From assembly GCA_016735395.1 (NCBI GenBank), contig JAERRO010000004.1:1-32423 (forward strand): a stretch of 32,423 nt of DNA. Direction: 5' to 3'. The notes beneath the pieces were generated by a model, which was not told the origin of the DNA, searched no databases, and saw nothing but the letters and a program-made list of their open reading frames with translations. Positions within the stretch are counted from its first letter, which is position 1, and each line of letters opens with the position of its first letter. This document shows, one piece after another, positions 17,932 through 32,383 of this stretch. Position numbers and translations under genes: made by a program. Source of the stretch: Alphaproteobacteria bacterium (lineage in GTDB: Bacteria; Pseudomonadota; Alphaproteobacteria; Rs-D84; JAERRO01).

Positions 17932-18420
17932 TTAATTTACAAATTTATATTTTTCTGCTTCCGTTCTAGCTATTTCATCTACTGTGTCATTATATAAATC
18001 GTTAGAATGTCCTTTGATCCAGGTTAACTTATAAGGAATATTTATCTCGGATACCTTTGAGATAACTAGATCTAATTTTTCCCATAGATCTCTATTTTTT
18101 ACAGGTTTTTTACTAGCAGTTCTCCAGTTATTAAGTTTCCAGTTTTTCAACCAAGAATCGATAGCATTTATGACATATTTTGAGTCTATAAAAAGTTCTA
18201 CATCGTCGAATTTATCTTTGTCAAAATTATTTACTAACCAATTCATAGCTTCTAAAACTGCTATAGCCTCCATTCTATTATTTGTAGTTTTACTATCTCC
18301 GCCGGATAAGATCGTCTCTTTGGAGTCAGTCGTCGGTAAAATTATAATTGCTCCCCAACCTCCTGGACCGGGATTACCTAAACAAGAACCATCCGTATAA
18401 ATTTTGATAGTCCTGTTCAT
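17932..18420 (-). CDS. rnhA: Ribonuclease HI
   Basis: 162 residues. The catalytic carboxylates are D10 (YTDGSCLGNPG), E51 (NNRMEA), D79 (FIDSKYV) and D148 (DEIA), with H138 in the WIKGHSND loop. The basic handle region, NWKLNNWRTASKKPVKNRD (93-111), is present. RNase HI removes RNA from RNA-DNA hybrids, including R-loops and primers. It lies 19 nt after a tRNA gene on the same strand and seems to share its transcript. No ribosome-binding site is obvious in that short gap. Confidence 0.96.
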   Translation of the reverse strand: MNRTIKIYTDGSCLGNPGPGGWGAIIILPTTDSKETILSGGDSKTTNNRMEAIAVLEAMNWLVNNFDKDKFDDVELFIDSKYVINAIDSWLKNWKLNNWRTASKKPVKNRDLWEKLDLVISKVSEINIPYKLTWIKGHSNDLYNDTVDEIARTEAEKYKFVN

Positions 18421-27114: not shown

Positions 27115-28428
27115 TTAATTTCTCTCGTTAGAAAATTCTTCATTGGTGTTCTCTTTGTAAGATGTCTGACTCAAGCTTCTAGTCTTCGCCTTCGTAGAAT
27201 TATAGAACTCTTCGATATCCATCTCCTTCCAAAATTTAGACAACTCCGGATTTGCTTCCATCATTGCCTCCGTCTTATGAAGATCCCTCTGCGGGCCTGC
27301 GATGTCCGTAAAGTTCTCGTTTCCTAGTGCCGATAAGACATCTATCATACCTTCAAAATCGTTATCTGATAGATTAGGGTCATCTATTTTAGGTATTATA
27401 GAACATATTTTCATAAATAGTGCCTGCGATACACGGTTATCTATCTGTATACTTCTTTTGTATCCTATATCATTTTCGATTATATCTAGTATAATTTTAT
27501 TTACAATCCCAAGACCAGGATGATCATCAAATTTTAGATCCTTTAGCTCGTTATAAAGTTGACTGTATGTAAAATCTCTATAACGACTCATTATTCCACC
27601 ATATCTATTGCAAGGCTCTGTGTCTTTTAATAGGTCGCTACTACAGTTCATAGATTTAAACCATACAAAAGATAGGTTAGGGTCGTTCGTATCTCTTATT
27701 GCCTGTCTAATCGCTTCTTTTAGGATCCCACTTTCTTCGTTTCTATCTCCAATGGGTAAATCTTCAGGCAATGTCATCCAGTTAGTAATATGTTTAGCCA
27801 AACTAGCTTCCTCTGCTTCTGTTAGAGTTGTATTTCCCTCAGGACTATTTATGACAGTACTCACCAACCCCTTTTTAAGAAATTCTGATATCAATAAATC
27901 CGGGATAATATTATAGAGATGTCCGTGCCCCGTTTTAATCATCGCAGAGATCAAATCGTAGAAATATTCTTTCTTCTCTTCTAGAGTTAACAGTTGATAT
28001 TCACTCATGTTTTTATAATGTCTATAAGAAGGAATTAACAGTTTATTAGTATATGAGCTCGTTATAATTTTACCAGGGGAAGAAAATTCTAGTAGTTCTA
28101 ATACAGTTCTGTATCTGTTCCAGGGGTTATCCTTACCGCTATACCATTCATTATTAAATTTTTTGACAATCCACCCTTCCATTAGGCCTGCACCTGAGTT
28201 AAAGTAAAAGTCGTCATAAATTCTGTCTACATCTGCTTCAGACATTGTGCTACCGTTATCGTTATCGTTGCCTGTATTATTGTCGATAGGTTTAGAGTTA
28301 ATAGTATTAGAATCATTTTCAAGAATATCACAACCTGCCACTATACCACAATTCAGAACTATCAAAGCTGATATCCCTATCTTTTTAACTGTAGGTGCAA
28401 ACTGCTCCATCATTTCTTGTACTGACAT
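27115..28428 (-). CDS. Unknown lipoprotein, 437 residues
   Basis: Family not recognised. The N-terminus has a lipoprotein signal: basic KK, a hydrophobic run, and the lipobox IVAGC with Cys33. The next residue is Asp, which in E. coli keeps lipoproteins in the inner membrane. A disordered Asn/Asp/Gly linker (about 38-62) follows, then a mostly helical, acidic domain (about 63-415) without repeats or a visible catalytic motif; C-terminal residues are Lys/Glu/Asn-rich. It stands alone with its own promoter between recA and rpmF, so neighbours give no clue. Confidence 0.65.
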   Translation of the reverse strand: MSVQEMMEQFAPTVKKIGISALIVLNCGIVAGCDILENDSNTINSKPIDNNTGNDNDNGSTMSEADVDRIYDDFYFNSGAGLMEGWIVKKFNNEWYSGKDNPWNRYRTVLELLEFSSPGKIITSSYTNKLLIPSYRHYKNMSEYQLLTLEEKKEYFYDLISAMIKTGHGHLYNIIPDLLISEFLKKGLVSTVINSPEGNTTLTEAEEASLAKHITNWMTLPEDLPIGDRNEESGILKEAIRQAIRDTNDPNLSFVWFKSMNCSSDLLKDTEPCNRYGGIMSRYRDFTYSQLYNELKDLKFDDHPGLGIVNKIILDIIENDIGYKRSIQIDNRVSQALFMKICSIIPKIDDPNLSDNDFEGMIDVLSALGNENFTDIAGPQRDLHKTEAMMEANPELSKFWKEMDIEEFYNSTKAKTRSLSQTSYKENTNEEFSNERN

Positions 28429-30382: not shown

Positions 30383-32383
30383 CTAATAATTATCGACTTC
30401 AGTCTCTACTTTAAGAGGAACTGACAAATCGGGGTTGTCTTGTGATACCTCTACGATTATAGAGACGACTTTATCGACATCGTTTTCGCTACATTCTATA
30501 GTTAATCTGTTGCAGGTTTCCGCCGATAATTTTGCATCGAGATTTTGTATTTTTATGTTTTTAAATATCTCTACTATTTTATAGTTTAAGATATCTTCTT
30601 TATGCTTTTGCAGTATAAAATCGGAAGAATTTTTCCGTACGAAATCTTTCTGTATGGAATTATTTTTATCGTTAAAAAACCGTCTCCGCCCCCAAGGAGT
30701 TTCTGCAAAGCCAAAATGTGATACTTTCTCGTAGGACTTTTCTATGAACAATTTTACCTCTGGTGAAACTTCGTAGTAGTCTTCTAATATGGTGTCTTCT
30801 TCTTGTAGTTCTCCGTTAGATTTATTTTTTAATTTAAAAACTGAATGTTCTATTTCTTTATGTAGGTCTTTATCGTTTTTAAAAATTTCTTTTAAGTGTG
30901 ATACATCTGCGATGTCTGCTATCAATCTTAATTCTATTTGCGGATAATTTACGATGACAGATTTTCTATTATCGCTTTTAATACTGTCTAATTTCTTGTT
31001 AGTCGACAAGAACGACAAAGGGAGATCTATTTTATGATATAGATCTGTCCTATTTTTATCTAATAATGAAATCAAATTATCGTAGACACCTGTTAGCTTT
31101 AGATAGTCATCTTTAGTGATTAGAGAGAAAAAAGAGGCTAATCCATCGCGGGAGTTATCTTCTAACGGTCCTATCGTCAAGTCCGACAATAAAGATATAT
31201 CGTAAAATCTTGAGATATTGTTTACATCGACGGCATCGTTATCTAGAAGGATTCTCCAAATATCTTTAATATTATCTGTAATCACTTTTAGACCACTTGA
31301 AACGACTACGGCTAGGACTTCGAGAATATCTGCATTGTCTACTTTAATTCCTACTATAGTTTTATCTTTATATTGCCAGGCGACACGACAAAGATTTTGT
31401 TCTTTATCGACTATGACTATGACTCTAGTAGCATCTTTTTGCTGTTTTTTCCACGAATCGACGGAGATCGTTTCTAGATTATTCTCATTATGTAGTATTT
31501 CTCTACTACTATAACAGTACTCTTTAACAAGTTTTATTAGAAACGGTGCTTCCAGTTCTTTTCGTATAAATTCGATGGCAGTCTTTTCATCTAGTCTATA
31601 TTTATCTTGTAGGACTGACTGATATTCTAAATTGACATCGTTAATTAGTGTTGCAAGTTCTCTTGACAAAAATGCATTAGCTCTATGTTCTTCCAGAGCC
31701 AGTCGAGTACTTGGTTTTATTTTAGTTAGGTTATCATAGATATTTTCTAGAGTTCCGAATCTAGAGATTAAATCTACAGCACCTTTAGCACCAATACTCC
31801 TCACACCAGGTATATTGTCGCTAGCATCACCAACTAGAGATTGATATGTAGTCATCTGTTTCGGATCTACTCCCATCTTATCCTTTACACCGCAACTATT
31901 GATAGTTATCTTTTTAAAGGGATCATATATAGAAATTCTATCGCCTACTACCTGCATTAGATCTTTGTCGGCGGAGACTATATATACTATGGATTTGTCA
32001 TTGTTATCTACGATGTGTTGTGCCATAGACACTATTAGATCGTCTGCTTCAAATGTATCTTTTTTTAAACAAGGTATACATAGACCTTCACATACTATAG
32101 GTAATTTTTCTAATTGCATTTTCAAATTTGGATCTTTCTCTGATCTATTAGCTTTATAATCTTTAAATATGTTGTGTCTAAAAGTCTTTACGGGACTATC
32201 ACTAGCGACTATAAAATTTGCCCCTTTATAGTCGTCAATCAGATTTAACAAAGTTTTAGTCAGACCCCAGACTGCATTGGTAGGAAAATTATCGGATCTT
32301 CTTTTCAGATCTTTTATACCATAAAAGGTTCTAAACATTAAATATGTTCCGTCGATTATAAAATATGTATTTTTATAGTTCAT
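30383..32383 (-). CDS. polA: DNA polymerase I with intact 5' nuclease but degenerate polymerase domain
   Basis: 666 residues against about 930 in E. coli. The 5'-3' exonuclease domain (1-290) keeps every expected carboxylate: D11, D62, E112, D114, D115, D139, D141, D186 and D189 (GDASDNIPGV). The middle part (about 305-425) follows the 3'-5' exonuclease fold but lacks the DxE pair. The polymerase part (about 430-666) lacks the thumb (about 150 residues missing) and the O-helix with its Lys and Tyr. Motif A reads NYPQIELR (479-486; normally DYSQIELR), and the motif C position reads TCNRL (623-627; normally VHDEL). ETPWGRRR (561-568) survives. So it can probably trim flaps and RNA primers but not polymerise. 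The frame is free of stops. It is upstream of ppi and recA on one strand. Confidence 0.92.
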   Translation of the reverse strand: MNYKNTYFIIDGTYLMFRTFYGIKDLKRRSDNFPTNAVWGLTKTLLNLIDDYKGANFIVASDSPVKTFRHNIFKDYKANRSEKDPNLKMQLEKLPIVCEGLCIPCLKKDTFEADDLIVSMAQHIVDNNDKSIVYIVSADKDLMQVVGDRISIYDPFKKITINSCGVKDKMGVDPKQMTTYQSLVGDASDNIPGVRSIGAKGAVDLISRFGTLENIYDNLTKIKPSTRLALEEHRANAFLSRELATLINDVNLEYQSVLQDKYRLDEKTAIEFIRKELEAPFLIKLVKEYCYSSREILHNENNLETISVDSWKKQQKDATRVIVIVDKEQNLCRVAWQYKDKTIVGIKVDNADILEVLAVVVSSGLKVITDNIKDIWRILLDNDAVDVNNISRFYDISLLSDLTIGPLEDNSRDGLASFFSLITKDDYLKLTGVYDNLISLLDKNRTDLYHKIDLPLSFLSTNKKLDSIKSDNRKSVIVNYPQIELRLIADIADVSHLKEIFKNDKDLHKEIEHSVFKLKNKSNGELQEEDTILEDYYEVSPEVKLFIEKSYEKVSHFGFAETPWGRRRFFNDKNNSIQKDFVRKNSSDFILQKHKEDILNYKIVEIFKNIKIQNLDAKLSAETCNRLTIECSENDVDKVVSIIVEVSQDNPDLSVPLKVETEVDNY

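Follow-up and report, generated by a model that had tools for sequence, protein, structure and literature searches.

The window analysed here, a stretch of 32,423 nucleotides (positions 1 to 32,423 of contig JAERRO010000004.1 of Alphaproteobacteria bacterium, GCA_016735395.1), carries a polA-derived gene whose product joins an intact 5' nuclease to a DNA polymerase I (Pol I) remnant that has lost its catalytic residues, and selection has held the reading frame of this remnant open after catalysis was lost. We consider it probable that Pol I has here been pared down to a flap endonuclease, to which a dead palm-like tail is still attached, and that gaps are filled by DnaE. The evidence base for this state is one draft genome (674 kb, 23 contigs, 93.5% complete) that has no close relative, scans for one having given only distant PolA proteins, and the gene starts 40 bases from a contig end. 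The features of the gene and one further ORF of the window are collected in Table 1. This further, rnhA-like ORF is putatively the other primer-removal nuclease of the genome. Adjoining recA, the window also holds a 437-aa ORF (27115-28428, minus strand) with a lipoprotein-like N-terminus and no assigned function.

Table 1 Features of the polA-derived gene and an rnhA-like ORF in the window
Feature	Position	Strand	Remarks
polA-derived ORF, 666 aa	30383..32383	-	5' nuclease fused to a polymerase remnant predicted to be catalytically dead; stop-free
5' nuclease (FEN) domain, residues 1-255	31619..32383	-	nine metal-ligand acids intact; pLDDT mostly >90
Linker and 3'-5' exonuclease remnant, residues 291-462	30998..31513	-	DTET and YxxED motifs lost; low-confidence model
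Thumb/N-terminal palm deletion junction, ~residues 456/457	31013..31018	-	~140 aa missing relative to relatives
Palm remnant, residues 463-666	30386..30997	-	modelled as a Pol I palm without fingers
Motif A, Asn479 (AAT) for the catalytic Asp	30947..30949	-	codon read directly
O-helix (RRKAKAINFGIIYG) in-frame deletion junction, ~residues 517/518	30830..30835	-	from the alignment
Motif C, C624-N625-R626 for H-D-E	30506..30514	-	codons read directly
rnhA-like ORF (RNase HI-like)	17932..18420	-	identity by reading the translation, without a family search

The 5' nuclease is intact and the polymerase half is predicted to be inactive

The nine metal-ligand acids of the 5' nuclease (D11, D62, E112, D114, D115, D139, D141, D186, and D189) could each be matched, with the codons read, to their Taq counterparts (D18, D67, E117, D119, D120, D142, D144, D188, and D191), in agreement with a preliminary description of this DNA. 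Aligned with 34 intact polymerases, some from the same order and some from other bacteria, this half keeps 31 of 33 invariant residues; its Pfam N and C domains score 139.9 and 92.7 bits, both well above the cut-off, and a Foldseek comparison with E. coli ExoIX gave a TM-score of about 0.9 (normalised by target). The protein thus has the active site and fold of a solo flap endonuclease of the ExoIX/Exo type, from which the polymerase-derived palm remnant sets it apart. With bacterial Pol I (PolA1) it shares the N-terminal FEN-like 5' nuclease and its metal-ligand acids, while the motif A Asp, the motif C Asp-Glu, the O-helix, and the thumb are all missing.

The losses in the polymerase half are extensive. 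Motif A reads VNYPQIELR (LDYSQIELR in Taq) and motif C, residues 623-627, reads TCNRL (VHDEL in Taq), so that the metal ligands are replaced (D479N, D625N, and E626R), and H624 is lost as well. Two further catalytic or DNA-contact residues are changed (R584K and N588D). The alignment with 36 homologues showed deletion of the O-helix (RRKAKAINFGIIYG), of the thumb with the N-terminal palm (about 140 aa), of most of the 3'-5' exonuclease, and of the C-terminal W-x-(D/E)AH; a block of about 15 residues preceding motif A is also gone. The preliminary description was therefore right about the replaced residues and their coordinates and about the missing fingers O-helix and thumb. The catalytic losses occur in none of the other homologues of the alignment. 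Compared with the 34 intact polymerases, the palm keeps 11 of 27 invariant residues and has lost 16; Y480, Q482, R486, D506, H508, Y536, G565, R566, Q592, and D597 are still present. Pfam DNA_pol_A (PF00476) still matches in two pieces with 83.7 bits (gathering cut-off 34.3), skipping profile positions 1-150 and 201-221, and both NCBIfam equivalogs for DNA polymerase I stay below their cut-offs (NF004397, 340 against 720 bits; TIGR00593, 318.5 against 600 bits). Judged from the sequence, the polymerase half is predicted to be dead, that is, to bind neither metals nor dNTPs and to make no DNA, and the same prediction holds for the 3'-5' exonuclease.

Structure prediction gave a full-length model that is confident in the nuclease, poor in the middle (about residues 294-470), and fairly confident in the palm. 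Modelled alone, the palm reached a pLDDT of 82.6 and a pTM of 0.76, and Foldseek placed it near Bst and Taq Pol I with a TM-score of about 0.84 over the query. Because the AlphaFold input alignment consists of intact homologues and biases the model to the palm fold, these values suggest compatibility with a palm fold rather than proof of folding.

The genome searches recovered DnaE as the sole DNA polymerase

The genome search recovered the window copy as the only DNA_pol_A gene, as the preliminary description had it, in an assembly whose missing 6% could hide another. It also recovered a single 5' nuclease, so that there is one PolA and one FEN. Profile searches for Pol B, Y, and X, which were positive in control genomes, had no match here, and Pol B and Y are likewise absent in the relatives tested. 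One DnaE (Pol III alpha) was found. The idea that a second complete polymerase makes this polA redundant was thus rejected at 93.5% completeness. Because DnaE is the only polymerase found and the polymerase half of PolA appears dead, gap filling, and indeed all DNA synthesis, would fall to DnaE. Of the gap-filling enzymes proposed in the preliminary description, Pol III is therefore supported by inference, and the Pol II/IV types drop out as absent from the genome. Cells with a FEN can do without the Pol I polymerase (PMC12926913), and B. subtilis DnaE replicates an Okazaki fragment by strand displacement with the help of FEN (PMC13082043); these precedents make a takeover of synthesis by DnaE plausible.

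The reading frame of the tail is protected by selection

When the palm codons of seven intact relatives were mutated neutrally down to the invariant-residue count of the window protein (frameshifts not counted), the mean number of stops was 7.6-8.9 and all 1050 runs acquired at least one, whereas the window palm has no stop. For the tail of 376 codons, neutral change at 50-59% replacement should yield 14-17 stops, and again none was observed. The earlier remark that about 370 downstream residues stay open without stops, which was taken to suggest selection, is borne out by both calculations: the frame has stayed open longer than neutral decay allows. Furthermore, the in-frame codon score of residues 291-666 was 0.185, compared with 0.193 for the nuclease part and a mean of 0.219 (sd 0.037, chunks) for other genes, and the codon-position composition of the tail matches that of the nuclease part and other genes. 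With its open frame, coding-like composition, and lack of any stop-free neutral counterpart in 1050 runs, the gene does not behave as a pseudogene. Since the loss of invariant catalytic residues is expected only once the enzyme is inactive, the absence of stops means that the frame was protected from then on; selection has kept the tail reading frame open past the loss of catalysis.

The opposite pattern, a broken frame with conserved residues, is seen in three polA genes of family f5 (G108, G105, and G092), whose frames are broken by one or two frame changes and whose parts are 61-73% identical to an intact relative. As candidates for further dead PolA proteins they were rejected, being frameshifted but well conserved. 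These three loci (L218, L219, and L220) are either recent pseudogenes or sequence errors.

The protection of the chain does not demonstrably extend to the palm fold. Hydrophobic-class palm positions are kept at 47 of 63 sites, which matches the neutral runs (0.70-0.74), and a conserved hydrophobic core was therefore rejected as proof of selection on the fold. On the window branch, the palm accumulated 3.1 and the nuclease 1.5 substitutions per site; relative to the rest of the tree the values are 0.225 and 0.096, about 2.3 times faster for the palm, which reflects relaxed constraint. Both the neutral-like core and the faster branch would suit a transitional relic, in which a useless polymerase half is heading for deletion towards a solo nuclease as in family f2, with the frame still whole because the loss happened recently or truncated products carried a transient cost. 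We regard this reading as possible, if doubtful, since the loss of 16 of the 27 invariant palm residues is unexpected before inactivation, under neutrality the palm should hold about 8 stops and the whole tail about 15, where zero are seen, and codon usage is still coding-like.

Solo 5' nucleases in other alphaproteobacteria

The relatives provide further support for such a relic. Within the same order, families f4, f5, and f6 have full Pol I proteins of about 810-940 aa. Family f6 includes the MAG 'Rickettsiaceae bacterium 4572_127', and the polA genes of G012 and L075 are identical. Family f2 has a solo 5' nuclease only (330 aa in G001 and an open frame of 347 aa in G006), with 35% and 38% identity, respectively, to the window nuclease. 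Elsewhere in the class, solo nucleases with frames of 296-316 aa occur in G346, G327, G410, and G204 (families f55, f28, f144, and f21), two of which, G410 and G204, are single-contig 600-kb genomes. With f2, five other families thus end as solo nucleases of about 300-350 aa, in which the tail is dispensable. In an AlaS tree, f2 groups with f4, which has an intact PolA (bootstrap 79), and the window, whose own placement beside another long branch is uncertain, is not joined to f2. A shared ancestry of the polymerase loss was accordingly rejected, and the grouping of f2 with f4 apart from the window suggests that the loss probably occurred several times independently, as the relic reading would have it.

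The AlaS proteins themselves differ in length: those of family f5 (L203, L206, L209, and L210) have frames of about 580-700 aa instead of the usual 880 or so, the part past the catalytic core being shortened, and the window AlaS has 900 aa.

A second frame-intact, motif-dead PolA was not seen among about 520 alphaproteobacterial genomes, a survey in which weak scorers were examined individually (with G198 as an ambiguous case) and full scorers were assessed by score. Four candidates (G254, G477, G325, and G466) were rejected because they look split by contig ends or frame, and three short ones (G176, G098, and G186) because their frames run into contig ends. In G003, a second, divergent DNA_pol_A gene (C9:55707-56876; 194 bits, 677-aa frame) lies beside an intact polA and is possibly of phage origin. 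G002 (84% complete), G020 (98%), and the f97 genomes G280 and G375 (96-97%) yielded no DNA_pol_A domain and no 5' nuclease; these bacteria need another route of primer removal, or the gene lies in the missing sequence.

Discussion

In the reading we favour, a flap endonuclease with a dead tail, the N-terminal 5' nuclease, given its intact active site, would trim RNA primers and 5' flaps, the single DnaE would extend Okazaki fragments and repair gaps, and ligase would seal them. The tail would be a palm without fingers or thumb that is still translated in a protected frame, most likely retained because it makes the nuclease more stable or gives it an adjacent surface that binds duplex weakly. 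Stronger, and in our view rather unlikely, is the proposal of a family A pseudo-polymerase, in which the flap endonuclease would have recruited the dead palm as an appendage with a structural or DNA-holding role. Such a scaffold claim is weakened by the neutral-like core, the faster palm branch, and the dropping of the tail in other reduced alphaproteobacteria. That the contig is chimeric or wrongly assembled, or that the fingers region contains sequence errors, is very improbable: the assembly is a draft in 23 contigs and the gene lies close to a contig end, but clean codons have taken the place of both motif A and motif C, which lie about 435 bp apart, the gene is homogeneous in frame, codon usage, and composition, and many separate lesions agree. 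To our knowledge, no family A polymerase works without metal ligands, O-helix, and thumb. A still-active polymerase with an unusual active site, as in archaeal PolB2, which according to the available text of PMC2527604 and PMC8764526 was considered inactive at first and later proved to act in translesion synthesis, has a negligible chance here, because the protein lacks the two metal ligands and, along with them, the dNTP-binding O-helix and the thumb, a damage far larger than that of PolB2.

Where the polymerase is lost and the 5' nuclease kept, what is known is mainly the end point, the solo nuclease. Mollicutes Exo is a truncated PolA of this type (PMC4007778; solo nucleases also in PMC12926913), and resembles the present case in its small genome, a Pol I brought down to the 5' nuclease, and synthesis thought to be done by Pol III; unlike these proteins, which have no polymerase half, the window protein retains about 370 residues in frame, including the dead palm. 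The solo nucleases of G001 and G006 likewise come from the same order and have a homologous 5' nuclease, but they lack the tail. In strains of the endosymbiont Cardinium, polA domains were repeatedly lost in part, the polymerase and proofreading parts going and the 5' nuclease staying (PMC12842512, in its available parts), which resembles the window protein and also fits a relic. The same parts describe deletions of domain fragments, not active-site replacement in a retained palm, and call polymerase-domain absence with the exonuclease retained 'not well known'. The window protein would thus represent a rare snapshot of polymerase shedding, an in-between state with the catalytic residues gone and the chain still encoded unbroken, in a genome whose replication and repair seem to depend on DnaE as the single DNA polymerase. 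It makes testable both a non-catalytic role of the Pol I polymerase domain for the nuclease and the order in which Pol I is dismantled in reduced genomes.

Catalytically dead polymerase folds kept beside an active module or partner are known from the C-terminal half of eukaryotic Pol epsilon (PMC2669801 and PMC7308368, as far as their accessible text goes) and from ImuB (PMC6511836). Those belong to families B and Y and are conserved across clades, whereas the window protein belongs to family A and is known from the sequence of one genome alone. By analogy, the dead module of Pol epsilon may be its nearest functional parallel, and if the pseudo-polymerase proposal were true, the tail would be the bacterial counterpart of that module.

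The suggestion in the preliminary description that the tail binds the beta-clamp found no support: across the 666 aa, none of three patterns for a clamp motif of the QxxLF type, as in beta-clamp-binding PolA (PolA2/APEX-like), matched. The solo 5' nuclease of G001 (family f2; L159:3985-4977), in contrast to the window protein, has ...PQQGDLF as its very last residues, a beta-clamp-binding motif of the QxDLF type that is absent in the nucleases of G006, G346, and G327. This motif suggests that in G001 recruitment by the clamp replaces the polymerase, as for FEN1 with PCNA.
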